NCBI RefSeq assembly: GCF_031081985.1
Contig: NZ_JARWSK010000005.1
Coordinates: 1-64,000 of the forward strand
Origin: Komagataeibacter xylinus
GTDB taxonomy: Bacteria > Pseudomonadota > Alphaproteobacteria > Acetobacterales > Acetobacteraceae
DNA: 64,000 nt
Reading direction: 5' to 3'
Positions within the stretch are counted from its first letter, which is position 1; the number at the start of each line of letters is the position of its first letter. The notes beneath the pieces were generated by a model, which saw nothing but the letters and a program-made list of their open reading frames with translations, did not search any database and was not told where the DNA came from. Shown here piece by piece: positions 539 to 13,372 of this stretch. The translations under genes were made by a program, and so were the position numbers.

Positions 539-1672
539 GTGTATCATATCCTTTTTCCGTATATTGCCCAGCCTCATCAGGAGTTCCATTCATTCCCGAT
601 CGCGCTGGAAATGGCGCGCCTGTATAAAGATGTTCGGGTTCACATTGCCAGCCTGACAGATGAACGCGCAGACCGGCTTCACGAGCTTTCGCGTCTCTAT
701 CCGGAGTCTTCCGTTACCTTTGATATGCTGGCCATGCCCCAGTGGATCCGCAACCACATAAAGCAGCATGGGCCGACGCCACTGAGCAAAATGGCCGTGC
801 TTTTTCTGAACAGAAATTATTTCAACAAGTTTCAGGCCATTGTCATTCCCGAGCGCACCTCGCTCTATTTACGCAAGATGGGAGTGCACAACCCCCGCCT
901 TATCTGGACCCGGCATGGCGCCGGAGACAGGGCCATCGGCTTTACCAATGACGTGCGGAAATTCGACTATATCCTGATGGCGGGCCACAAGGTTGAAGAG
1001 CGGCTGCTCCATGCGGGCACATTGCGCAAGGGGCACTATACCACTGGAATCTATGCAAAATTTGACATGGTGCGACGACTTCACGTTCAGGCACGCCCGC
1101 TTTTTGATAATGGGCGCCCCACGGTTCTCTACAACCCGCACTTCAGTCGCAGCCTGTCTTCATGGCCACGATTTGGCATGAAATTGCTGCGATATTTTGC
1201 GCAGCAGGAAAAATATAACCTCATCTTTGCCCCGCATTACCGGCTTTTCGATACAAATCGTGAGAAAAGCATGGAAATCCTGGCGCCTTTTACCCAGTTT
1301 CCCCATATGATCATTGACCTTGGCAGCGACAAAAGCGTCGACATGACCTATACCATGGCTGCCGATCTCTATCTGGGTGATGTCAGCAGTCAGGTCAGTG
1401 AATTCCTTATAAAACCGCGCCCCTGCCTTTTCCTTAACGCGCACCGGACCCCATGGCGCGGCGACCCCAATTATGAGAACTGGACCCTTGGCCCGGTCGT
1501 GGAAAACGTGGAAACAGCAGGCAATGACCTTGACAATGCTTTCCTGTCACATGCAAATTTCCTTGATCGGCAAAAAGAGTATATACACGACACATTCGGG
1601 TTTGAGCCGCCGGCAGATACGGCGGCCAAAGGCGCGAAATCGATTATTGACTTTTTGAGGGTAATTGGTTGA
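539..1672 (+). CDS. CDP-glycerol glycerophosphotransferase-like protein
   Basis: This 377-residue protein has a GTG start and resembles the CDP-glycerol:glycerophosphotransferase family (teichoic-acid-type enzymes). Visible features are an early HILFPYIAQPHQEFH segment, a WTRHGAGD segment near residue 123, FAPHYRLF near 231 and a late LGDVSSQVSEFL block followed by RPCLFLN. There is no signal peptide or obvious membrane segment, so it is probably cytosolic or peripheral. Its TGA overlaps the TTG start of the acyl-AMP ligase by four bases, so the two are co-translated. That links it to sphingolipid synthesis, possibly moving a glycerophosphate-like head group. The substrate is unknown, and other nucleotide-activated polyol transferases are possible. 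Confidence 0.65.
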   Translation: MYHILFPYIAQPHQEFHSFPIALEMARLYKDVRVHIASLTDERADRLHELSRLYPESSVTFDMLAMPQWIRNHIKQHGPTPLSKMAVLFLNRNYFNKFQAIVIPERTSLYLRKMGVHNPRLIWTRHGAGDRAIGFTNDVRKFDYILMAGHKVEERLLHAGTLRKGHYTTGIYAKFDMVRRLHVQARPLFDNGRPTVLYNPHFSRSLSSWPRFGMKLLRYFAQQEKYNLIFAPHYRLFDTNREKSMEILAPFTQFPHMIIDLGSDKSVDMTYTMAADLYLGDVSSQVSEFLIKPRPCLFLNAHRTPWRGDPNYENWTLGPVVENVETAGNDLDNAFLSHANFLDRQKEYIHDTFGFEPPADTAAKGAKSIIDFLRVIG

Positions 1673-3468
1673 ACACCGCCCATTCGCCGTTTCAAGATAC
1701 GTCTGTGGAAGTCAAATTACCGGAAATGATAAGCCTCCCGACCCCCTCCGATTCTGGTCTGCCTCGTCGTTACGGCGATTTTTCGTCGTTTCCGGCTGCG
1801 CTGGACTATGCCGCCCAGGGCAAGAGCGGCTTCAACATCTATTCCGGCAAGGGCGTCCTGCTCGAAACGCTGCCTTACAGCACGTTGCGCGAACAGGCGA
1901 TCGAGACCGGCAGGCGCCTACTGTCACTCGGGCTTGAACCGGGCGACCGGGTGGCCGTCGTAGCGGAAAGCGATGGTGACTTTGCCCGTATCTTCTTTGG
2001 CTGCCAGTATGCAGGCTTGGTGCCCGCGCCCCTGCCGCTGCCGGTCGCCTTTGGCGGGCGCGAGGGCTATGTCGGCACCCTGCGCGGCATGATCGAGGGC
2101 GCTGCGGCATCGGCCGTGGTCATCGCCTCGATCATCGCATCATGGACTGATGAGATCACGACCGGGCTGGACCTGAAGTTCTCCGGCACGCCAGCCGAAC
2201 TGCTGCAAACGCCCATTACGGTCGAAACCCTGCCCCCGGTCGGGCCGGATGACCTGTCCTATTTGCAGTTTTCCTCGGGTAGCACGCGTTTCCCCATGGG
2301 CATTGCCGTAACCCAGCGTTCGGGCATGGCCAATGCACACGCCATTGCGCTCAACGGGCTCAAGGTGCGCGAAACCGGCGATCGCTGCGTGTCGTGGCTG
2401 CCGCTTTATCATGACATGGGACTCGTTGGTTTTTTCTTAACGCCCATGACCTGCCAGCTCAGCGTCGACATGCTACCCACGCGTGAGTTCGCCCGTCGCC
2501 CCCATGTATGGCTGGACCTGATCAGCCGCAATCGCGGCACGATTTCGTACAGCCCCTCCTTTGGCTATGAGCTGTGCGCGCGTCGCGCCACCTCGATCGA
2601 GCTTGATCTCTCATCGTGGCGCGTGGCGGGCATTGGCGGCGACATGATCCGCTATCATATCCTTGAGGATTTCGCCCAGCGCTTCGCGTCCGCCGGTTTT
2701 GACAGCGGTGCCTTTACCGCCAGCTACGGCATGGCCGAGGCGACGCTGGCCATCAGCTTCGCTCCGCTTGGCAAGGGCATCTGCACCGATACGATCGACC
2801 TGCGCGCGCTCGAGACACAGGGCAAGGCCGTAGCCTCCAATGATCCGGCCCGCGCGCTGCGCACCTTCGTGCTTTGTGGCGAGGTGCTGCCGCATCACGA
2901 GCTTGAAGTCCGTGATGCGCAGGGCCGTGTGCTGGGCGACCGCGAGATCGGCACCGTCTATGTGCGTGGCCCGAGCCTGATGCAGGGCTATTTCCGCCGC
3001 CCGCAGGAAACCGCCCGCGTGGTCGATGCCGAAGGCTGGCTCAATACCGGCGATCTTGGCTACATGCTCAACGGGCAGGTTGTCATTACCGGGCGCGCCA
3101 AGGATCTGATCATCATTAACGGTCGCAACATCTGGCCGCAGGATCTGGAATGGTCGGCCGAGACCGAGATCAGCACGCTGCGCAGCCGTGACGTGGCCGT
3201 GTTCTCAGTTGATGAGGATGAAGGCGAAAAGATCGTGGCCCTCGTGCAGTGCCGCGCGACCTCGCCCGAAGCCCGTGAAACGCTGAAAACCGAAACAGCC
3301 AGCCTGTTCCGTCGGCAGCATGGGGTGGATGTGTCCATCATCTTGGTGCCGCCCCACACCCTGCCGCAGACTTCATCGGGCAAGCTGACGCGGGCTCGGG
3401 CTCGGGCCATGCTGCTTTCCGGGGCGTTCCAGCCGCTGGAAACATCCTCTTCCGTTTCCGTGGTCTGA
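1669..3468 (+). CDS. Fatty acyl-AMP ligase (FAAL-type acyl-activating enzyme)
   Basis: This 599-residue ANL-superfamily adenylating enzyme starts at TTG inside the TTGA junction with the preceding gene. The nucleotide loop is FSSGSTRFPMG (about 201-211), without the usual Lys after Pro. The core-to-C-domain hinge is GRAKDLIIINGRN (about 475) and the catalytic Lys motif is SSGKL (about 569). FAALs make acyl-AMP from fatty acid and ATP and pass the acyl group to a carrier protein rather than CoA. A dedicated ACP and serine palmitoyltransferase follow directly, so the likely role is to load the ACP with the fatty acid used in long-chain-base synthesis. CoA ligase activity is the alternative. Confidence 0.82.
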   Translation: MNTAHSPFQDTSVEVKLPEMISLPTPSDSGLPRRYGDFSSFPAALDYAAQGKSGFNIYSGKGVLLETLPYSTLREQAIETGRRLLSLGLEPGDRVAVVAESDGDFARIFFGCQYAGLVPAPLPLPVAFGGREGYVGTLRGMIEGAAASAVVIASIIASWTDEITTGLDLKFSGTPAELLQTPITVETLPPVGPDDLSYLQFSSGSTRFPMGIAVTQRSGMANAHAIALNGLKVRETGDRCVSWLPLYHDMGLVGFFLTPMTCQLSVDMLPTREFARRPHVWLDLISRNRGTISYSPSFGYELCARRATSIELDLSSWRVAGIGGDMIRYHILEDFAQRFASAGFDSGAFTASYGMAEATLAISFAPLGKGICTDTIDLRALETQGKAVASNDPARALRTFVLCGEVLPHHELEVRDAQGRVLGDREIGTVYVRGPSLMQGYFRRPQETARVVDAEGWLNTGDLGYMLNGQVVITGRAKDLIIINGRNIWPQDLEWSAETEISTLRSRDVAVFSVDEDEGEKIVALVQCRATSPEARETLKTETASLFRRQHGVDVSIILVPPHTLPQTSSGKLTRARARAMLLSGAFQPLETSSSVSVV

Positions 3469-3475
3469 CAAGTCT

Positions 3476-3499
3476 GGCAACGCATCTATATGCGTTGCC
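3476..3499 (+). terminator. Perfect hairpin between ligase and ACP genes
   Basis: GGCAACGCAT, loop CTAT, ATGCGTTGCC: a perfect 10 bp stem lying 8 bases after the ligase stop. No U tract follows, so it may be an attenuator or an mRNA 3'-end stabiliser that sets different levels of ligase and ACP rather than a classical terminator. Confidence 0.4.
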
Positions 3500-3668
3500 A
3501 TGTCAGTTCAGGATGGAAAGCAGGACTGGCCAAAAACCTGTTTTTCGCGCATAAGGCTTTGCAATGAAGGGGACCGGTTGCAGTCCCCGTCCCCGCCGCA
3601 TGCGCGGGGCGACCATTCATGCTGATCCGCTGCCTCTGGCAGGCTGGACATGCCATAAGGATGTAGGA

Positions 3669-3920
3669 ATGAGTGAAACGGTAGCGAGCGTCTCCGCGCT
3701 GATCGTGAAGACGCTGCTGGCGAACCCGAAGGTTCCCCGTGATATCAATGGCAGCAGCAAGATCGTTGAGGATCTGGCCTTCGATTCACTGGCCGTCATG
3801 AATTTCGTCATGGAAATCGAGGATACCCTCGATGTTTCCGTGCCGCTTGACCGGCTGGCCGATATCCGCACCATTGATGACCTGGCTGCCTGCATCGTTT
3901 CCCTCAAGCAGGCTTCCTGA
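3669..3920 (+). CDS. Dedicated acyl carrier protein of the sphingolipid pathway
   Basis: This 83-residue acyl carrier protein has the phosphopantetheine Ser at position 40 in the motif LAFDSLAV. I chose the ATG at 3669 because it is preceded by a purine-rich AGGATGTAGGA, and because the longer upstream frame (from 3564) adds 35 residues unlike any ACP. It is distinct from the housekeeping AcpP at 16832-17071, which has [16 protein letters not shown] around its Ser. Its position between the acyl-AMP ligase and serine palmitoyltransferase implies that it carries the acyl thioester consumed by the transferase. It lies six bases before the spt start. Confidence 0.9.
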   Translation: MSETVASVSALIVKTLLANPKVPRDINGSSKIVEDLAFDSLAVMNFVMEIEDTLDVSVPLDRLADIRTIDDLAACIVSLKQAS

Positions 3921-3926
3921 CGCATC

Positions 3927-5129
3927 ATGTCGATTTTTTCCAAATATGAAGGGCTGGCCTCCGCCCTTGCGTCCGTAACCGCTGGTGGCGGCCGCAACCC
4001 CTTCAATGTCGTGATCGAAAAGCCCATTTCCTCAACGGTGGGGCTGATCGAAGGGCGCGAGACGCTGCTGTTCGGCACCAATAACTACCTGGGGCTGAGC
4101 CAGTCACCTGCGGCAATCAAGGCTGCGATAGCCGCAGCAGAAGCCTATGGCGTGGGCACGACCGGCTCGCGCATTGCCAATGGCACGCAGGGCCTGCACC
4201 GCCAGTTGGAGGAACGGCTTTGCGCCTTCTTCCGGCGCAGGCACTGCATGGTATTCTCCACGGGCTATCAGGCCAATCTTGGCACCATTTCCGCCCTTGC
4301 GGGTAAGGATGACTACCTGCTGCTCGATGCCGACAGCCATGCCAGCATCTATGATGGCAGCCGCCTTGGCCATGCGCAGGTGATCCGCTTCCGCCATAAC
4401 GATGCCGATGACCTGCACAAGCGCCTGCGCCGCCTTGAGGGCACGCCGGGTGCGAAGCTGGTTGTGGTTGAAGGCATCTATTCCATGATGGGCGATGTGG
4501 TGCCCATGGCGGAATTCGCTGCCGTCAAGCGCGAGACCGGGGCCTGGCTGCTGGCCGATGAAGCCCACTCCGTTGGCGTGATGGGCAAGCATGGGCGCGG
4601 CGTGGCCGAGGCCGATGGCGTGGAAGATGATGTGGACTTCGTAGTCGGCACCTTCTCCAAAAGCCTGGGCACGGTGGGGGGCTACTGTGTCTCCAACCAT
4701 GACGGGCTGGACCTGATCCGCCTGTGTTCACGGCCTTACATGTTCACGGCCTCGCTGCCGCCGGAAGTCATTGCCGCAACCATGGCGGCCCTGACCGAAC
4801 TGGAAAACCACCCGGAGCTACGCACCCGCCTGATGGACAATGCCCGCAGGCTGCATGCGGGCCTTCAGGCGGCGGGCCTGCGCACTGGCCCGCAGGCAAG
4901 TCCGGTCGTATCGGTCATTCTGGATGACGTGGCGGTTGCCGTGGCGTTCTGGAACCGGCTGCTTGACCTTGGGGTTTACGTCAACCTCAGCCTGCCGCCC
5001 GCAACGCCGGACCAGCACCCGCTGCTGCGCACCTCCGTCATGGCAACGCATACGCCTGCGGAAATTGACAAGGCTGTTGATGTCTTCGCGACAGTCGCGC
5101 GCGAGATGGGACTCAGCCACGCCGCCTGA
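3927..5129 (+). CDS. spt: Serine palmitoyltransferase
   Basis: This 400-residue PLP enzyme of the alpha-oxoamine synthase family condenses L-serine with an acyl thioester to 3-ketosphinganine, the first step of sphingolipid synthesis. Visible motifs are DADSHASIYDG (His stacking on PLP), LADEAHSVG (Asp binding the pyridine N) and GTFSKSLGTVGGY with the PLP Lys at 245. The following RPYMFTASLPP segment is typical of bacterial soluble SPT and argues against KAPA synthase (BioF), although bioB occurs 21 kb away. The acyl donor is probably acyl-ACP from the gene just upstream. Its 3' end overlaps the convergent cytidylyltransferase-like gene by 17 bases. Confidence 0.9.
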   Translation: MSIFSKYEGLASALASVTAGGGRNPFNVVIEKPISSTVGLIEGRETLLFGTNNYLGLSQSPAAIKAAIAAAEAYGVGTTGSRIANGTQGLHRQLEERLCAFFRRRHCMVFSTGYQANLGTISALAGKDDYLLLDADSHASIYDGSRLGHAQVIRFRHNDADDLHKRLRRLEGTPGAKLVVVEGIYSMMGDVVPMAEFAAVKRETGAWLLADEAHSVGVMGKHGRGVAEADGVEDDVDFVVGTFSKSLGTVGGYCVSNHDGLDLIRLCSRPYMFTASLPPEVIAATMAALTELENHPELRTRLMDNARRLHAGLQAAGLRTGPQASPVVSVILDDVAVAVAFWNRLLDLGVYVNLSLPPATPDQHPLLRTSVMATHTPAEIDKAVDVFATVAREMGLSHAA

Positions 5130-6075
5130 AGAATCCTGCCTGCCGGAGCTTCCATAACAGGTACGGCAGGCAGATCAGCGGATGCTGCTCGGAAAATGGT
5201 CCAAGCGGCAGTTCAATGCCGGAGTGCCGCCTGATCTTCCAGGCAATATAGCGCGCGCCCCCTTCAAACGTGAAGGCGCCCTTGAACAGGCGGCTGACAT
5301 TGAGCACCCGCCCCAGCCGACCGCGCAGCCACCAGCCTTCATGCATGCTGCGCCGCAATTGCGGGGTCAGGCGCGGGGCAAGGCGATCCCCCTCTCGCGA
5401 GAACGGCAGGCCATCGGCCAGCCATATATCAGGCAGCAGCGCGCGATAACGCGCTTCACGCCCCTCAAGCAGGGCGGATGGCCTGCGCCCGTTCTCCACC
5501 CGCAATTCCGCGCCATAGGTGTGCGCGAACAGCGCCAGCCAGAATGCATCCGCCGTGCCCTGTTCAGGGCCAAGAGCCGCCGCCCAGCGCCCGGCCTGCC
5601 CCATGGCGCGCACCAGGCAGCCCAGTATGGCGTCAGCCGCCTCTGGCCCACGCACCCAGACCAGCCTGACCGGCTGGCAGAACCGCGCCCAGATGGTGGT
5701 GTCAAGCGTGGCCCGCCCCGTCATGCGCCGGAACTGGGCAATCGACAGGATGGCCACCTTGGCGCGGATGATGCGCCCGCCCACCGGGATCTCGTGGTAT
5801 TCAACATTGGGCGGCAAAAGGCGATTGGCCTCACGCGCGAAGTAACCAGAGGTCCAGTCTTCCAGCCGTTCCACGATGACATAAAAGTCCAGCACGCCAT
5901 CAGGGTCGGGTTCGCGCAGCACGGAGCCGTAAAACAGCACGCCCAGGGGCTGCGTCTTACCCAGCAGCTCGCATACAAACTGCGTGACAAAGGCAGGAAC
6001 CGGCTGGACCAGTTCATTGGCCAGCGTATGGGCAATGCGCCCTGCCGCGGCAAGGCGGCTGGAAGGATCAGCCAT
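5113..6075 (-). CDS. Tam41-like phosphatidate cytidylyltransferase family protein
   Basis: This protein of about 320 residues has a nucleotidyltransferase-fold signature YGSVLREPDPDGVLDFYVIVE, followed by EDW, an Asn-rich LPPNVEYHE segment and TTIWARFCQPVRLVW. This order resembles mitochondrial Tam41 phosphatidate cytidylyltransferase, which makes CDP-diacylglycerol. The ATG at 6075 is preferred because GAGGA lies nine bases upstream; the ATG at 6084 abuts it. It starts 12 bases after the lipid kinase stop, so the two form a leftward operon. By context it may activate ceramide 1-phosphate with CTP, or act in a related head-group step. The reaction is inferred. Confidence 0.6.
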   Translation of the reverse strand: MADPSSRLAAAGRIAHTLANELVQPVPAFVTQFVCELLGKTQPLGVLFYGSVLREPDPDGVLDFYVIVERLEDWTSGYFAREANRLLPPNVEYHEIPVGGRIIRAKVAILSIAQFRRMTGRATLDTTIWARFCQPVRLVWVRGPEAADAILGCLVRAMGQAGRWAAALGPEQGTADAFWLALFAHTYGAELRVENGRRPSALLEGREARYRALLPDIWLADGLPFSREGDRLAPRLTPQLRRSMHEGWWLRGRLGRVLNVSRLFKGAFTFEGGARYIAWKIRRHSGIELPLGPFSEQHPLICLPYLLWKLRQAGFFRRRG

Positions 6076-6087
6076 GGTCAGCATTCC

Positions 6088-7080
6088 TCAGGCGTGGATA
6101 AAGTCGATGGGTGCCGTGGCGGACAGCATGATCCGGCCAGACGCGCCGGGGGAAAAGACTTCCCCATCCAGCACGAAATCGGATTCAAGCGCCATTTCGA
6201 TCCGCTCTTCGCAACCGCTGCAGTAATCCGGGTTATGACGCAGCCAGGCCGGGTGCCGCCCCCGCAGCAGCGCCCAGGCCGCAGCACCGAGGCGCGAGGG
6301 CTGGCCTGCCACATGCAGGTAATTGATTACATCGGTGCGCCCGCCCGCCACGTTCCAGAACGGCCATATGCCATGCGGCAGGCGCTGGAGCGTGCTGGAC
6401 AGGAACAGAAAGCAGTTTCCATGCCGCACCGACTTCTCACCCGCCCTGAGCGTAATCGGGTTGCCCTGCATCCATTCCCGCCGTGAGCGACGGGTGAACA
6501 GATGCGCGACCGAAGACAGGAACGAGACGACAACCGCCATTTCATGGGAGTAATTGTTCAAGATGGCGGGCTGGTGGGCGAGTTCAATGCCGCGCGTAAA
6601 GGCGGCGGCCCCGTGGAACATGCCTACGACCGCAGGCTTGGCCTCGGCCTCGGGCCATTCCACAACAAGCCCGCAACGCCTGCGCACCTTCTGCCGCAGC
6701 GTGCCCGCCTCCGCAAGGCTGAGCAGCAGGTCAAGGGCCTTGCGCCCGCGCAGGCCAAAGCCCACGTCACCCGCGATCAGGTTGGTATTGCCCGAAGGCA
6801 GGATGGCAAGGGCAGGGAAACGCGCGGGGTCGTAATGGCGATGGATGGCGGTCAGCACATCGCTGACCGTGCCATCCCCCCCATCGACCACGATACAGCC
6901 CATGTCGCGCGCGGCCAGTTGCGCGATTGCGGCATCGAGAAGGGAACGGTCGGCCGGATCAATGAAATTCTCTCCCAGAAGGCTACGGGCCATCGGGGCA
7001 TACGAACTCTTGTCGCCCATATTCCGCCGGCTGCGCGGGTTATAAACAAGCGCAAAACGTCCGGTCACTGATGATTCCAT
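6088..7080 (-). CDS. Ceramide/diacylglycerol-type lipid kinase
   Basis: This 330-residue protein belongs to the diacylglycerol kinase catalytic family. The nucleotide-binding glycine motif is VVDGGDGTVSDVL (about 60-72), followed by LPSGNTNLIAGDVG, the conserved GTxNDxA-type block. Caulobacter has a related ceramide kinase (CpgB) in its ceramide phosphoglycerate locus. Next to serine palmitoyltransferase, ceramide 1-phosphate formation is the most likely role. It is transcribed divergently from the phosphoesterase gene, with 66 bases between them, and is followed by the Tam41-like gene. Diacylglycerol or sphinganine could also be the substrate. Confidence 0.72.
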   Translation of the reverse strand: MESSVTGRFALVYNPRSRRNMGDKSSYAPMARSLLGENFIDPADRSLLDAAIAQLAARDMGCIVVDGGDGTVSDVLTAIHRHYDPARFPALAILPSGNTNLIAGDVGFGLRGRKALDLLLSLAEAGTLRQKVRRRCGLVVEWPEAEAKPAVVGMFHGAAAFTRGIELAHQPAILNNYSHEMAVVVSFLSSVAHLFTRRSRREWMQGNPITLRAGEKSVRHGNCFLFLSSTLQRLPHGIWPFWNVAGGRTDVINYLHVAGQPSRLGAAAWALLRGRHPAWLRHNPDYCSGCEERIEMALESDFVLDGEVFSPGASGRIMLSATAPIDFIHA

Positions 7081-7146
7081 CCCTGTCTGAAATTTGACTT
7101 ACAGGCCATAAGCAACCATCTGCCTTCTATTGCAAGGCACGAAACG

Positions 7147-8097
7147 ATGGAACGCATCACCACACTGGCAGGCATAACACCGCCCGGCCCGGTTACTGAC
7201 CGGCCTGATGCAGGGAAAGACACCAGCTTGAACACCATCACCATAGCCCATCTTTCTGACCCGCATCTGCCGACGGAAATGTCGCCCCCGCGCCTGCGCG
7301 AGAAGCTGAACAAGCGCGTGTTCAGCCATCTTTCATGGAAGCGGCGCCGCCGTTTTTTGCACCGCCCGGAAATTCTGGCCCGCGTGATGGCCGATATCGG
7401 CAGCGCCCATGTGAACATGATCGCGCTGACTGGCGACCTGACCAATATGGGCCTGCCGGGAGAATGCCGCCACGCCCTGCGCTGGCTTGAACAGATGCCC
7501 GCCCCATGCACAGTCATACCGGGAAATCATGACACCCTTGTGCATGATAACTGGCAGCAGACCGTAGGCCTGTGGCAGCCATGGATGGGCGCACTACCCT
7601 TTCCGTTCGTGCGCCGGGTGGGCCCGGTTGCGCTGATCGGGGTCAGTTCGGCGGTGCCGACGCCCTGGTTCAGGGCCACAGGCCGCGTGGGCGCGCGCCA
7701 GGCTGCCCGCCTGGCCGCAATACTGCACGAAACAGGCAGGCAGGGGCTGTGCCGCATTGTCATGATCCACCATCCGCCCGTGCCGGGCCTCGCCATTGCC
7801 CGCAAGGCGCTCAAGGATCCCCAGCTTTTCGCCCATGGCATTGCGCGCGAAGGTGCCGAGATGGTACTCCATGGTCATATCCATACCTCCACCCTGTCTT
7901 CCCTGCCCGGCCCCGCAGGCGCGGTGCCGGTGCTGGGCATTGCGTCGGCATCGGCACGGTCACATGATCCGCTGCGCGCGGCGGCATGGAACCGGATTAC
8001 CATCACGCCACGCGATGGAGGGTATACGCTTGGTGTTACAAGGCGTTTCTTTCCGGCGGGGGAACCGGCGGGTACAACGCGGGAAACTATTTTTTGA
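7147..8097 (+). CDS. Metallophosphoesterase
   Basis: This calcineurin-like phosphoesterase shows all metal-ligand blocks: SDPH, GDLTN, GNHD, HHPP and LHGHIH. The frame opens at ATG 7147, but the conserved part begins at the TTG of 7228, giving MNTITIAHLSDPH, with AGGGAAAG upstream. That shorter 289-residue form is plausible and would leave 147 bases for the divergent promoters. No signal peptide or membrane segment is seen. It lies between the lipid kinase and the LptF-like permease, so it may dephosphorylate or hydrolyse a lipid intermediate of the sphingolipid route, much as LpxH-type enzymes do for lipid A. The substrate is unknown. Confidence 0.75.
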   Translation: MERITTLAGITPPGPVTDRPDAGKDTSLNTITIAHLSDPHLPTEMSPPRLREKLNKRVFSHLSWKRRRRFLHRPEILARVMADIGSAHVNMIALTGDLTNMGLPGECRHALRWLEQMPAPCTVIPGNHDTLVHDNWQQTVGLWQPWMGALPFPFVRRVGPVALIGVSSAVPTPWFRATGRVGARQAARLAAILHETGRQGLCRIVMIHHPPVPGLAIARKALKDPQLFAHGIAREGAEMVLHGHIHTSTLSSLPGPAGAVPVLGIASASARSHDPLRAAAWNRITITPRDGGYTLGVTRRFFPAGEPAGTTRETIF

Positions 8098-8141
8098 ATG
8101 AGTCCTCCTCCGTATCGTTTTTTGGATATAAGCACGCCTAG

Positions 8142-9374
8142 ATGAGCCGCATGTCTTTACAGCACGGGATTCTGGCCAAGCTGCGTCCCACAACCATGGA
8201 CCGCTACCTGCTGCGGCAGGTCGTGCCGCCGTTTTCCATCGCGCTGGGCGTGGTCATGTCCGCCCTGCTGCTGGAGCGGCTTCTGGTGCTGTTCAACATG
8301 CTGGCTGCCAATGGCAGTTCCATGAAGACATTCTTCGGCCTGCTCAGCGACCTGATCCCCCATTACCTGGGGCTCGCACTCCCGGCGGCCATGTGCGTGA
8401 GCGTGTTTTCCATTATCCGGCGCATGAGCGCCAACCATGAAATTGATGCCCTGACGGCCAGCGGGGTCTCGATCTTCCGCATCTGCCAGCCCTTCGTGCT
8501 GACAGGGGCGGTGTTTGGCGTGCTGGCCTTCTCGCTCTATGGCTTCATCCAGCCTTACGCGCGCTACGACTACCGCTCGGCCTTCTATTTCGCCAGCCAT
8601 GCGGGCTGGACGCCGCACCTGCAGTCCAAGATGTTCGCCATATCCGATGACATCATGCTCACGGCCGAGAACGTGGACCATGCGGGGTCGCGGCTGTTCC
8701 ATGTCTTTATCCGTGACAATTCGGACAAGTCGCGCGTGCGCTACATTACCGCGCAGAAGGGTTACCTGTACAATCCCGCCGACGGCTCACGCATGCGGCT
8801 TGACCTCGTCAACGGCACCATCGTAACCGACACGCCCGACAAGCCCCCCACCATCACCGGCTTTACCCGCACCACCCGCCTCATTTCCGGCGAGGCCAAG
8901 CTTGATGATGAAGCCTATCGCAAACGCGGCGAGACAGAACGCGAACTGACCTTGCCAGAACTGTATTACGGCATACGGCACGGCTACCCCGGCATCAGCC
9001 CGTCCTACATGCTGGCCGAACTGCACTTCCGCCTCGCGCGCACGGCCGCCATTCCGTTCATTCCCATCCTGGCCTGCGCGCTTGCGGGCGTGCGCAAGCG
9101 CCAGAAGGGCAATCCCGGCCTGGCCATTGCCGCCATCACGCTGGTCAGCTTTGACCACACGCTGCAGATGGGCATGAGCTTCGTCGCCAACATGCACATG
9201 TCGCCGCTGCTGGTCATCTGGCTGCCTACGGTCATTTTCGCCGTAGTGTGCGTCGGCATGCTGATCCGGCAGGCAGGCGGCCTGCGCACCCTGCTCTCGC
9301 CGGGGCCGCGCCTGCCGCCACGCCAACTTTCGGCAGATGGCCTGCCGCGACGGATGCAGGAAAAAGAGGCATGA
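8142..9374 (+). CDS. LptF-like lipid export permease
   Basis: This 410-residue YjgP/YjgQ-family inner-membrane protein has three N-terminal membrane helices (about 25-45, 65-90 and 115-135), a periplasmic beta-jellyroll-like middle and three C-terminal helices. The early MDRYLLRQVVPPF start of helix 1 is characteristic. LptF and LptG with LptB2 extract lipopolysaccharide from the inner membrane. The housekeeping pair usually sits beside lptD, surA or pdxA. Here it lies amid sphingolipid genes and overlaps its partner by ATGA, so export of a sphingolipid is a reasonable inference. No ATPase gene accompanies it, so it would borrow one. Confidence 0.8.
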   Translation: MSRMSLQHGILAKLRPTTMDRYLLRQVVPPFSIALGVVMSALLLERLLVLFNMLAANGSSMKTFFGLLSDLIPHYLGLALPAAMCVSVFSIIRRMSANHEIDALTASGVSIFRICQPFVLTGAVFGVLAFSLYGFIQPYARYDYRSAFYFASHAGWTPHLQSKMFAISDDIMLTAENVDHAGSRLFHVFIRDNSDKSRVRYITAQKGYLYNPADGSRMRLDLVNGTIVTDTPDKPPTITGFTRTTRLISGEAKLDDEAYRKRGETERELTLPELYYGIRHGYPGISPSYMLAELHFRLARTAAIPFIPILACALAGVRKRQKGNPGLAIAAITLVSFDHTLQMGMSFVANMHMSPLLVIWLPTVIFAVVCVGMLIRQAGGLRTLLSPGPRLPPRQLSADGLPRRMQEKEA

Positions 9375-10477
9375 AGCTACGCCTGCGCCTGGCCAGCGGC
9401 ACGGTCCTGCTCGGGTATATCTCGCGTGAGTTGCTGGCCAAGGTGTTCACCACGACCATCATCGTCGTGGCGCTGATGGAAATCCTGGCCCTGCTGGAAC
9501 AGGTGACCGAAATCATGCACCGTCACCTTGGCCTGTCCGGGGTATTGTACTACGCGGTCATGCACCTACCGCTCCTGTTCGGCAACGCCATGCCCATAGC
9601 CGTGCTGATTGGTGCGCTGCTGACGCTGCTGCAACTGACGACATCGAACGAAATCTCGATCATGCGGGCGGCCGGCCTGTCCACCCCGGGGCTGATCAAG
9701 CTGTGCCTGCCCACCATACTCGGCCTTGGCGTGCTGTGCGGGGTGGTCAATGACCAGATCACGCCGCGCTCGGAGCAGCACCTCGCCGAATGGTGGAACG
9801 CCACGACCCCCGATGCCGCGACGGTATGGCACAACTACTGGCTGCGCGCGCATGATGACCTGATCAACATCAACTACCTTTCGCGTGGCGGGCAGGCGCT
9901 TGACGGGGTCTCGGTCTATCACCGCGACCACCAGAGCCTGCTGCAGAAGGTCACCACCCTGCGCGACGTGCATTACATCCATGGCCACTGGTATGGCACG
10001 CCCACGCGGGTGGTAAGCGTGATCAGCCCGACCCACGTCGAACTGCTCGACACGCCTGCGCAGCCCGTGCGCCTTGACTGGCCCGATACGCTCACGCCCG
10101 GCTACGTGATGCAGATTACCGTCAGTTTAACCCAGTCCATCGGCACCATGCTGGCCGAGCAGAACGATACCATGCCCTCCAGCCAGTCGCCCTCGTTTTT
10201 CATAACCGAAATACTGGGACGCATCATGTTACCGGTCACGTTCGCGGTAATGCTGTTACTCGCCGTGCCGGTGGTCTATATCCCCCCCCGGGCTGGCACG
10301 CGCAGCTGGTTACCCATATGGTGCCTTGGCGCGGGCCTGCTGTTTGTCGTGTTCCAGGGGCTGCTCCGCGCGCTTGGCAATGCGGGAACATTGCCCTCGC
10401 TTATGGCGATATTCGTCGGGATCCTGATTTTCATCCTTGGCGTCATCACCGTGCTACTGAGGATCGAAGAGCGATGA
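9371..10477 (+). CDS. LptG-like lipid export permease
   Basis: This 368-residue second YjgP/YjgQ permease starts at the ATGA overlap with the LptF-like gene. The upstream extension of the frame from 9248 is not used. It has an N-terminal helix starting LLGYISRELLAKVF, two more helices, a periplasmic middle domain (about 125-255) and three C-terminal helices ending in VLLRIEER. It is the partner subunit of the preceding protein. Its stop overlaps the hydroxylase start (ATGA), tying transport and lipid modification into one transcript. Sequence alone does not separate an LPS role from a sphingolipid role. Confidence 0.8.
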   Translation: MKLRLRLASGTVLLGYISRELLAKVFTTTIIVVALMEILALLEQVTEIMHRHLGLSGVLYYAVMHLPLLFGNAMPIAVLIGALLTLLQLTTSNEISIMRAAGLSTPGLIKLCLPTILGLGVLCGVVNDQITPRSEQHLAEWWNATTPDAATVWHNYWLRAHDDLININYLSRGGQALDGVSVYHRDHQSLLQKVTTLRDVHYIHGHWYGTPTRVVSVISPTHVELLDTPAQPVRLDWPDTLTPGYVMQITVSLTQSIGTMLAEQNDTMPSSQSPSFFITEILGRIMLPVTFAVMLLLAVPVVYIPPRAGTRSWLPIWCLGAGLLFVVFQGLLRALGNAGTLPSLMAIFVGILIFILGVITVLLRIEER

Positions 10478-11256
10478 TTACAAATACCCTGAAGAACAGT
10501 TCCATCCGCACAGGCCGCAGCTTCGACCTGGGCAAGATGAACCTGTCCCAGCTCTGGATTGCCTACCTCACCTACCCCACCATCATCCTGTATTTCGTGC
10601 TGGCCATCGCCAGTTACGCGGTCATGGTGCACACCTACACGTCGTTCGCGCCGGTCGCCATCAGCATCGCGGCGGTGATGCTGGTCTACCCGCTGGTCTG
10701 GTATGGCATCCATCGCTTCATCCTCCATGGGCGGTTCCTGTACCGCATGAAATGGAGCGCCACCCTGTGGAAGCGCATCCATTTCGATCACCATCAGGAT
10801 CCCCACCTGCTTGACGTGCTGTTCGGCTCGCCGCTCAACACCATTCCCACCATCGCCATCGTCACCATTCCCATCGGCTACGCCATTGGCGGGCTGGCAG
10901 GTTCGGGTGCCGCCTTTGGCGCGGGGCTGACCATTACGTGCATCTATGAATTCTTCCACTGCATCCAGCACCTGAACTACAAGCCGCGCATGCGCTGGAT
11001 CCAGTTGATGAAGCAGCGCCACGTTCTGCATCACTTCCATAACGAGAACGGCAATTACGGCATCACCAGCTTCGTGGCCGACCGCATCTTCCACAGCTAT
11101 TACCCCGATGCCCGTGGCTGCCCGCGCAGCCCCACCGTGTTCAACCTTGGCTATGACATCGAGGAAGCCCATCGCTACCCCTGGGTGATGGAAGAGACCG
11201 GCTCCCCCCCGCGCGACCGCCCCGATGGCGCCAACACCACCCGGAACGCGGCGTGA
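10474..11256 (+). CDS. Fatty acid hydroxylase / sterol desaturase superfamily protein
   Basis: This 260-residue integral membrane di-iron enzyme has four hydrophobic segments and His boxes: HRFILH (about 80), RIHFDHH (about 104), FFHCIQH (about 155) and KQRHVLHHFH (about 180). The family hydroxylates or desaturates lipid chains using two irons held by these His residues. Acetic acid bacteria are reported to contain ceramides with hydroxylated acyl chains, so a ceramide or long-chain-base hydroxylase is likely here. The exact position hydroxylated is unknown. It overlaps both neighbours (ATGA before, GTGA after). Confidence 0.8.
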   Translation: MITNTLKNSSIRTGRSFDLGKMNLSQLWIAYLTYPTIILYFVLAIASYAVMVHTYTSFAPVAISIAAVMLVYPLVWYGIHRFILHGRFLYRMKWSATLWKRIHFDHHQDPHLLDVLFGSPLNTIPTIAIVTIPIGYAIGGLAGSGAAFGAGLTITCIYEFFHCIQHLNYKPRMRWIQLMKQRHVLHHFHNENGNYGITSFVADRIFHSYYPDARGCPRSPTVFNLGYDIEEAHRYPWVMEETGSPPRDRPDGANTTRNAA

Positions 11257-12038
11257 GCACGGACATGGCGCTGAATGTTCTCATCCTGGCGGGCAGCAGG
11301 CCGGGGCGGCCCGACCCCATGGCGCAGGCGGCGGGTATTTCGCACAAGGCCCTGCTGCCGGTTGGCGGCAGCCCCATGATCAGCCGGGTCATCACCGCCC
11401 TCCAGTCGGTCGAGGCCATTGGCAGGATCGCCATCTGCATCGAGCGCCCCGAGGTGCTCGCGGGCATCGTGCCCGACAACGTGACCTTCATCCCCCCCGC
11501 CTCCGGGCCGAGTTCCAGCGTGATGAAGGCGCTGGACACGCTGGGCACGCCGCTGCTGGTCACCACCGCCGACCATGCCCTGCTCGAGCCCGCCTGGGTG
11601 CGCAGCTTCGTGCTCAAGGCACAGGAAAGCGGGGCCGACGTGGCCGCAGGCATTGCGATGGAACGCGATATCCTGCGCGATGTGCCGGGCACCAAGCGCA
11701 CCATGATCCGTCTGGCTGATGGCGCCTTCTCGGGCTGCAACATGTTCCTGTTCCGCACGCCTGCCGCGGCCGGCGTGATCCGGCTGTGGCAGAAGCTCGA
11801 GGCCGACCGCAAGAACCCGCTTAAAATGGCGCGTACGCTTGGCCTGGGCATCCTGCTGCGCTTTGTGCTGCGCCGCCTGACCCGTGCGGATGTATGCCGC
11901 CGCATCGGCCAGCTTTCACACGCGCGGGTGGCCATGATCGAGCTGCCCAACGGGCGCGCCGCCGTGGATGTGGACAAGCCCGCCGACCTTGAACTGGTCA
12001 CGCACCTGCTCGCATCCCACCCCCTGCCCGCGACCTGA
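11253..12038 (+). CDS. MobA-like nucleotidyltransferase
   Basis: This 261-residue protein has a GTG start in the GTGA overlap with the hydroxylase gene. The N-terminus LNVLILAGSRPGR with KALLPVGGSPMI resembles NTP-transferase (GT-A/MobA-like) enzymes, and TTADHALL near residue 107 would be the metal-binding acidic motif. The C-terminal VDVDKPADLELV is typical of the family. Such enzymes transfer a nucleotide to a small phosphorylated molecule. By position it may activate the polar head group of the sphingolipid. Molybdenum cofactor synthesis is unlikely because no mo genes are near. Confidence 0.65.
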   Translation: MSTDMALNVLILAGSRPGRPDPMAQAAGISHKALLPVGGSPMISRVITALQSVEAIGRIAICIERPEVLAGIVPDNVTFIPPASGPSSSVMKALDTLGTPLLVTTADHALLEPAWVRSFVLKAQESGADVAAGIAMERDILRDVPGTKRTMIRLADGAFSGCNMFLFRTPAAAGVIRLWQKLEADRKNPLKMARTLGLGILLRFVLRRLTRADVCRRIGQLSHARVAMIELPNGRAAVDVDKPADLELVTHLLASHPLPAT

Positions 12039-12056: not shown

Positions 12057-12557
12057 ATGCACCGTCCATCCGCGCCACAGCTTCAGTCCGCCATCCGCAC
12101 GGGTGTCAGCCAGATGTGCCGGATGCATGGGTGGGCGGTCCTGCATGAATTCGTCCTGCCTGATCGCAGGCGGGCCGATATCATGGCCCTGACACCGCAG
12201 GGCGACCTTTTATGCATCGAGATCAAGTCCGGCCTGCCGGATTTTCGCGCCGACCATAAATGGCCCGATTACCTGCAATGGTGCGACCAGCTCTATTTCG
12301 CGGTCAACCAGGACTTTCCCCACCACATCCTGCCGCAGACAGCCGGGCTCGTGATCGCCGCCACCCGGCCTGCTGCCGCGCAGGCAGCCACCTGCATGGA
12401 CTGCGCCATCATCCACCACCCGCAGCGCAGCCCGCTTGCCGCCGCACGCAGGCGCAAGCTCACGCTACAGTTCGCCATGCAGGCCGCCGAACGGCTGGGC
12501 CGGGTTGACATGCCGCAGGTGGAACATGCGGTGAAAACGGCGTTACGTGTAGAATAG
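12057..12557 (+). CDS. mmcB: MmcB family DNA repair protein
   Basis: This 166-residue protein has the PD-(D/E)XK-like core RRADIMAL ... CIEIKSG (about 38-62) and a Trp/Tyr-rich middle. It matches MmcB, an alphaproteobacterial putative endonuclease induced in the SOS response of Caulobacter. It follows the nucleotidyltransferase gene by 18 bases, so it may be read through from the sphingolipid operon, but its function is unrelated. No LexA-type site was recognised upstream. Confidence 0.82.
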   Translation: MHRPSAPQLQSAIRTGVSQMCRMHGWAVLHEFVLPDRRRADIMALTPQGDLLCIEIKSGLPDFRADHKWPDYLQWCDQLYFAVNQDFPHHILPQTAGLVIAATRPAAAQAATCMDCAIIHHPQRSPLAAARRRKLTLQFAMQAAERLGRVDMPQVEHAVKTALRVE

Positions 12558-12583
12558 AGTTCCTTCCACAAGAAAGGTTACCC

Positions 12584-13372
12584 ATGTCACAGGCCATCCT
12601 GACCCGCTTTGAAGCCGCCCGCTCCGTCGTGCGCGATGCCGCCGCCCTCGCCATGAAAATGCGCCCTGCCCCCGGCGGCCCCAAGGGCACCCAGAAAAGT
12701 GCTCAGGACTGGCTGACCGAAACCGATGGAGCGGTGGAAGCCTTCATCTCCGAGCGAATCGGCATGCTGTTCCCCGAGGATGGCTTTCAGGGCGAGGAAG
12801 AAGGCCGCACCCGTACCGGCAGCCTGCGCTGGGTGGTGGACCCGATCGATGGCACCTCAAACTACGCGCGCGGCCGCAATCGCTGGTGCATCTCGCTGGG
12901 CCTGATGGATGGCGACACCCCCGTGGCCGGCATTATCGAGGCCCCGATGCTGGGCGAGACCTATACGGCGGTAAAGGGGCATGGCGCATTCCTTAACGGC
13001 GCGCGCATCCAGGCCTCCCCCGTGACCGACCCCGCCACCTCCCTGATCGAGATGGGCTGGAGCAACCGGGTGCCGCCGGGCGTGTTCCAGGAAAAGATCG
13101 ACGCCATCCTGAACCTTGGCGCCATGCCACGCTCGGGCGGCTCAGGCGCCATTGCCCTGGCTGAGGTCGCCTGCGGGCGGCAGGACGGCTATCTGGAAAT
13201 TCGCATCAACCTGTGGGATGTGGCCGCCGCCCTCGTGCTGCTGGAGGAGGCAGGGGCGAAGGTCTCACCCTTCCTGCGCGATGGCGGGCTTGAGGATGGC
13301 ATCCATATCCTTGCCGCAGCCCCCGGCATTGCCGATGCCCTGTCGCAGGCGGTAGGCGTCTCCCTTAAATAA
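12584..13372 (+). CDS. Inositol monophosphatase family protein
   Basis: This 262-residue Mg-dependent, Li-sensitive-type sugar phosphatase has E-E at GEEEG (about 67-71), the metal motif WVVDPIDGTSNY (about 84-95) and the late INLWDVAAALVL block. The nearest functional classes are SuhB (inositol-1-phosphatase), histidinol-phosphatase and CysQ; the motifs do not decide among them. An AGAAAGG ribosome binding site sits just before the ATG. It is preceded by mmcB, 26 bases away, and followed by a separate secreted protein gene. Confidence 0.82.
   Translation: MSQAILTRFEAARSVVRDAAALAMKMRPAPGGPKGTQKSAQDWLTETDGAVEAFISERIGMLFPEDGFQGEEEGRTRTGSLRWVVDPIDGTSNYARGRNRWCISLGLMDGDTPVAGIIEAPMLGETYTAVKGHGAFLNGARIQASPVTDPATSLIEMGWSNRVPPGVFQEKIDAILNLGAMPRSGGSGAIALAEVACGRQDGYLEIRINLWDVAAALVLLEEAGAKVSPFLRDGGLEDGIHILAAAPGIADALSQAVGVSLK

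Follow-up and report, generated by a model that had tools for sequence, protein, structure and literature searches.

How acetic acid bacteria reduce the keto group of their ceramides and build the head group of their sphingolipids is the question raised by a gene island of Komagataeibacter xylinus. It occupies positions 539-12038 of the window, i.e. the whole stretch of DNA analysed here, the first 64 kb of contig C13 (NZ_JARWSK010000005.1) in an assembly of 3.53 Mb. The island includes serine palmitoyltransferase (SPT) and is an acetic-acid-bacteria variant of the kind published for Caulobacter. Orthologues of CerR, CpgA and CpgD are missing, GPT, a GT-B protein, is an unusual member, and the LptF/LptG pair is a second copy; the initial annotation of this DNA had pointed out neither these features nor that the island is already described. 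In the reading that we favour, and to which we give an even chance, GPT and the nucleotidyltransferase of the island stand in for CpgA and CpgD, and a classical short-chain dehydrogenase encoded beside CerS stands in for CerR. Both replacements are predicted from gene context. The basis of our analysis consists of gene families, two folds, conserved gene order, the second LptF/LptG pair and the missing orthologues.

At which stage of bacterial ceramide synthesis, and where in the cell, the keto group is reduced is disputed, and a group with SPT and CerS but without CerR is a natural test of this question. The enzyme adding the outer phosphoglycerate is still unproven in Caulobacter too, and a group in which neither CpgA nor CpgD is found directs attention to new candidates. 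Our literature search turned up no paper devoted to the sphingolipid head groups of acetic acid bacteria, and searches on their reductases led no further. The ceramides of Acetobacter have been the subject of older lipid work.

Gene content and conservation of the island

Eleven genes were confirmed at 539-12038:

539..1672, + strand: GPT, GT-B protein distantly similar to TagF/CDP-glycerol glycerophosphotransferases, putative head-group phosphotransferase
1669..3468, + strand: AasR-type fatty acyl-AMP ligase (acyl activation), NF006624 894 bits, cut-off 600
3669..3920 (alternative start 3564), + strand: AcpR-type acyl carrier protein (ACP), PF00550 39.8 bits, DSLA phosphopantetheine site
3927..5129, + strand: SPT, NF047599 641 bits, cut-off 500, FSKSLG stretch
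5113..6084, - strand: CpgC-type (CC_1161) Tam41-fold cytidylyltransferase
6088..7080, - strand: CpgB-type (CC_1160) ceramide kinase of the DAGK family, PF00781 44.7 bits, position conserved
7147..8097 (start possibly downstream), + strand: CC_1158-type metallophosphoesterase, PF00149 40.9 bits, position conserved
8142..9374, + strand: LptF2-type permease, PF03739 183.7 bits
9371..10477, + strand: LptG2-type permease, PF03739 179.7 bits, overlapping LptF by 4 bases
10474..11256, + strand: fatty-acid hydroxylase family protein, PF04116 69.2 bits, His motifs
11253..12038, + strand: MobA/CofC-like nucleotidyltransferase, CC_1153-type, not CpgD, PF12804 61.4 bits

Family matches and gene coordinates thus bear out the eleven sphingolipid-type genes of the initial annotation. 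Its further statement that overlapping reading frames bind most of the genes together holds in so far as 4-base overlaps occur at four junctions, but the genes form three transcription units and not one, namely GPT-ligase-ACP-SPT (+), CpgB-CpgC (-) and phosphoesterase-LptF-LptG-hydroxylase-nucleotidyltransferase (+). The joining of all steps into one pathway, offered there as an inference, is supported by conserved gene order, and the Caulobacter counterpart was tested genetically according to the published text (PMC11324152).

In the window, spt, aasR and acpR are found together, and the genes for CpgB and CpgC adjoin spt. For the comparison with relatives, gene families were assigned by profiles built for this analysis, with E cut-offs of 1e-5 to 1e-8 in most scans. 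Among 289 alphaproteobacterial genomes (the class sample), SPT is present in 40, the own genome counted, and its surroundings were taken for 34 of the 39 others; 31 of these 34 loci lie outside the Acetobacteraceae. Annotated beside SPT are CpgC (20/34), the hydroxylase (18/34) and CpgA (11/34), and 28 of the 31 non-Acetobacteraceae loci contain CerR.

MmcB and an inositol monophosphatase family gene come after the island (12057-13372) and have the same place in several relatives. An Rfam scan gave no family in the window and, in four relatives, one tRNA only (in locus L107).

Missing orthologues of CerR, CpgA and CpgD

CpgA, CerS, CerR and CpgD were searched in 22 genomes, i.e. 19 Acetobacteraceae and three controls, a set to which the GPT-bearing genomes G297, G403, G356 and G357 do not belong. 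CerS is present in all 19 Acetobacteraceae; its orthologue in the own genome (G000:C11:7450-8586, E 2.8e-101) lies outside the island. CerR, CpgA and CpgD are all carried by the three controls. In 18 of the 19 Acetobacteraceae the CerR search did not exceed 131 bits, compared to 409-450 bits in the controls. The apparent CerR of the remaining genome, G256 (L034), was rejected, as its 264.6 bits are circular: the protein is itself a row of CerR profile A1, and its score falls to 39.9 bits once that row is taken out. With a 9-row CerR profile the best match in the own genome is HpnA (117 bits), compared to 306-352 bits for the CerR of six other Acetobacteraceae loci.

These six loci come from the 15 family genomes that exceed the SPT cut-off without having GPT, all of which were inspected around SPT. 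Seven others show the acetic-acid-type order without CerR (L271, masked upstream, L273-L275 and L277-L279), and L266 (short contig) and L276 were assigned to neither order. Two of the GPT-less loci with CerR also carry further genes of the Caulobacter set: L269 has CpgA (409 bits) and CpgD (297 bits), and L267 has CpgD (319 bits).

CpgA, a CDP-alcohol phosphotransferase, gave no match in the own genome at E 0.001. There was likewise none in 15 of the 19 Acetobacteraceae, and four had weak matches of 22-25 bits; the controls scored 588-605 bits. In some families LptG and the hydroxylase are separated by a second gene of the CDP-alcohol phosphotransferase-like type (L036, L051, L058 and L063; Pfam tested in L036). 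The CpgD cytidylyltransferase profile found 47 bits over part of its length in the own genome and at most 84 bits in the 19 Acetobacteraceae, compared to 322-336 bits in the controls. In this small sample, viewed without a species tree, the losses of CerR, CpgA and CpgD look specific to the acetic-acid-bacteria group.

The nucleotidyltransferase at 11253-12038 was considered as CpgD and rejected, since CpgD-like genes form a separate family that adjoins its orthologues in L038, L055 and L060. The CpgD-like genes of other genomes have invariant R13, K23 and D109, at an even three-residue offset from the R16, K26 and D112 given in the published account (PMC12275187). A PDB sequence search with the nucleotidyltransferase returned only TTHA0179.

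A candidate for the keto reduction

According to statements in PMC11087976, the core enzymes are present in all sphingolipid-making bacteria, Caulobacter CerR is placed in the periplasm, and the source of its electrons is a matter of question. For CerR, the acetic-acid-bacteria group looks like an exception to this universality.

Our candidate for the reductase is a classical short-chain dehydrogenase of about 265 residues, encoded divergently to CerS. All eight aligned dehydrogenases have TGxxxGxG and YxxxK, which we take to be the motifs of classical short-chain dehydrogenases. Since no signal peptide was seen by eye, the enzyme is predicted to be cytoplasmic. The surroundings of CerS were inspected in 12 of the 19 CerS genomes, and the dehydrogenase lies beside CerS in all 12 (G000, G026, G256, G289, G301, G310, G313, G318, G329, G343, G347 and G359); in G343 it stands between an SPT-like gene and CerS. 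At E 1e-40 it was found in none of the other loci scanned, the three control CerS loci (0/3) included.

The best CerR-profile matches of the own genome, HpnA and an extended short-chain dehydrogenase/reductase (SDR) gene near lptC (104 bits), suggest another solution, namely that one of these two reduces the keto group and the dehydrogenase beside CerS is unrelated. Moreover, a figure legend gives GOX1849 as 'epi' of Gluconobacter (PMC9386255). However, HpnA exceeds its own hopanoid cut-off (TIGR03466 486 bits, cut-off 368), a gene similar to the one near lptC also occurs in genomes with a true CerR (G037, G271), and the pairing of dehydrogenase and CerS recurs in 12 loci. We consider this solution unlikely.

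GPT and the head group

GPT is 96% identical to its counterpart in K. xylinus NBRC 15237. It has a TagF-like GT-B fold, and PF04464 is the only Pfam family that matches it at E 0.01, with 20.1 bits. We infer that GPT works like a PF04464 CDP-glycerol glycerophosphotransferase, without filing it as a member of that family. A PDB sequence search gave two chance matches only.

The genomic company of GPT speaks for a role with sphingolipids. The GPT and ligase genes overlap by 4 bases in the window. Gene order in relatives, to which the initial annotation had pointed as a check, gave a positive result: among the 15 Acetobacteraceae loci centred on the best GPT match, GPT adjoins the ligase in 13, the two exceptions being L107, where it is elsewhere, and L110, where its place is masked; five of the 20 loci (L111-L115) are centred on GPT paralogues and were left out of this count. 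Of the named GPT loci, which are the best 80 of a longer scan, 73 have GPT beside the ligase and 71 have SPT, and none has CpgA or CerR. In the class sample, SPT is found in 8 of the 9 GPT genomes versus 40 of 289 overall (hypergeometric P 5.7e-7), and in the family sample the SPT cut-off is exceeded by 20 of the 21 GPT genomes versus 36 of 120 overall (P 4.4e-12). These 21 genomes comprise 15 with island-type GPT (at least 49% identity), five with paralogues only and one (G347) with paralogues and a part-masked island copy; masking also covers the GPT site of G026 and G158.

Could GPT be a glycosyltransferase that puts a sugar onto the ceramide head group and not a phosphotransferase? We regard this as quite improbable, as PF04464 is its sole Pfam family and TagF takes all top five rows for GPT in VIA, the first place included. 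GINT1_N-type genes lie near the island in L032, L033, L099, L102, L273-L275, L277 and L282 (assigned as PF24793 by Pfam in L032 and L099, by own profile or clustering in the others), hinting at sugar decoration of the lipid. A GPT paralogue of the own genome (G000:C14:105795-108093, i.e. L111:9296-11594) is paired with a GT4-type glycosyltransferase, and other acetic acid bacteria have a glycosyltransferase of the same kind behind the nucleotidyltransferase of the island. In L115 and L153 (G343:C41) a variant cluster combines an SPT-like enzyme with the dehydrogenase, CerS, two GPTs and a GINT1-type gene; none of the cut-offs tested is reached by this SPT-like enzyme (bioF 340 bits, SPT 276 bits).

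The second LptF/LptG pair

A PF03739 search found a further LptF/LptG pair on contig C12 of the own genome besides that of the window. LptF is present in 67 and LptG in 60 of the best 80 named GPT loci. That the island pair serves ordinary lipopolysaccharide export and stands in the island by chance is, given this recurrence and the pair on C12, very improbable, even if the LptF/LptG families are generic and the own genome yielded a single LptC. The same search in G037 gave the sphingolipid-island pair (G037:C11:255850-258104) and no second one.

A flippase lies upstream of GPT in 27 of the 36 named loci whose upstream sequence extends to 1.4 kb or more (among the best 80). The other 44 have less than 1.4 kb there, and assemblies of several genera end at this place. 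The window contig itself ends 538 bases upstream of GPT, and these contig ends suggest a repeat, perhaps an rRNA operon.

Proposed pathway and its weighing

The pathway reading of the island is supported; the substrates in this organism, reduction by the dehydrogenase, head-group transfer by GPT and export are predicted. The acyl-AMP ligase would put a fatty acid onto the ACP, SPT would join it with serine, and CerS, encoded on another contig, would add the second chain. The keto group would then be reduced in the cytoplasm by the dehydrogenase divergent from CerS, replacing the periplasmic CerR. The island hydroxylase, for which ceramide is probably the substrate, would add a hydroxyl group. 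CpgB would phosphorylate the ceramide, and CpgC, predicted from its Tam41 fold to make a CDP-lipid from CTP, would activate the ceramide phosphate toward ceramide phosphoglycerate (CPG). The nucleotidyltransferase may provide a nucleotide-activated phosphoglycerate-like donor, which GPT would move to lengthen the head group, standing in for CpgD and CpgA, before LptF2/LptG2 export the finished lipid.

Taken together, cytoplasmic reduction before export and a teichoic-acid-type transferase would yield a teichoic-acid-like outer-membrane sphingolipid in which ceramide bears a charged head group of phosphoglycerate (or glycerol phosphate) and which is exported via a dedicated LptF2/LptG2 pair. 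We put forward this combination tentatively, as possible but doubtful. If true, reduction precedes export and no periplasmic reductant is required.

Several observations weigh against the favoured reading. GPT scores below the curated Pfam cut-off of 22.1 bits, epimerases come first in its Foldseek ranking, and in VIA TagF is only about one Z unit over them. GPT and CpgA occur together in 6 of the 9 GPT genomes of the class sample, so GPT is no strict CpgA substitute, and the idea that it replaces CpgA everywhere was rejected. In seven family loci (L273-L275, L277-L279 and L282) the island order exists without GPT beside the ligase, and in G365 GPT is on a different contig. In 7 of the best 80 named loci GPT is away from the ligase, in the company of glycosyltransferase and GINT1-type genes. 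Five family loci with CerS near SPT (L268, L270, L272, L276 and L281) have no dehydrogenase next to CerS, which makes 12 of 17 family loci overall with this pairing; in L276 and L281 the inspected stretch has no CerR orthologue either. The single LptC also counts here. Finally, Caulobacter needs CC_1153 for CPG2 in spite of having CpgD, as reported in PMC11324152, so CC_1153 has a task of its own there. Because of this need for CC_1153 beside CpgD and of the CerR-bearing loci (6/15), our confidence does not go beyond the even chance given above.

A simpler outcome would be that the island ends at CPG, and that GPT acts on another surface glycan and adjoins the ligase by co-regulation only. It would fit the absence of CpgA and CpgD from the 19 Acetobacteraceae genomes, the relatives whose island has no GPT next to the ligase, and the seven loci in which GPT stands with glycosyltransferase and GINT1-type genes; moreover, the Caulobacter authors expect Zymomonas, which is without CC_1159, to have CPG and no CPG2 (PMC11324152). 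The strong link of GPT with SPT in the class and family samples and the overlap with the ligase gene make this outcome rather unlikely in our view.

Comparison with known systems

In Gluconobacter oxydans, aasR, acpR and spt are named (PMC9386255), and GOX2058-GOX2056 show the same aasR-acpR-spt; judged by the locus numbers in that source, there is no cerR between aasR and acpR. The source lists GOX1849 as the reductase, whereas our data favour the dehydrogenase beside CerS. Bacteroides BT_0972, a 3-ketosphinganine reductase described in PMC11087976, is likewise a proposed bacterial reductase other than CerR; it comes from a different phylum and is set beside the dehydrogenase by description, not by sequence. 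CpgD is reported to make CDP-glycerate (PMC12275187), and structures of it are reported as well (PMC13228409); the window island also encodes a nucleotidyltransferase, but of the neighbouring CC_1153-type family. GPT resembles TagF/PF04464 in its GT-B fold and differs in scoring below the Pfam cut-off and in lying among sphingolipid genes.

The closest known system is the Caulobacter crescentus island CC_1168-CC_1152, described in PMC11324152 as 17 genes including ceramide genes, CpgA-C, a phosphoesterase, LptC2/F2/G2 and a flippase, eleven of which contribute to phosphosphingolipid formation. For Caulobacter, others have reported SPT, AasR/AcpR, CerS, CerR and the kinase CpgB; they also found CpgC and CC_1153 to be genetically required and CC_1158 to contribute. 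The window island shares aasR, acpR, spt, CpgC, CpgB, the CC_1158-type phosphoesterase, LptF2, LptG2 and the CC_1153-type gene in comparable order, a match that rests on gene order, Pfam and the published text and not on Caulobacter sequences. Unlike Caulobacter, the own genome gave no CerR, CpgA or CpgD orthologue and carries CerS on another contig, and the window has GPT heading the first operon and a hydroxylase inside the island. It is these group-specific changes that are the new part of an otherwise published kind of island.

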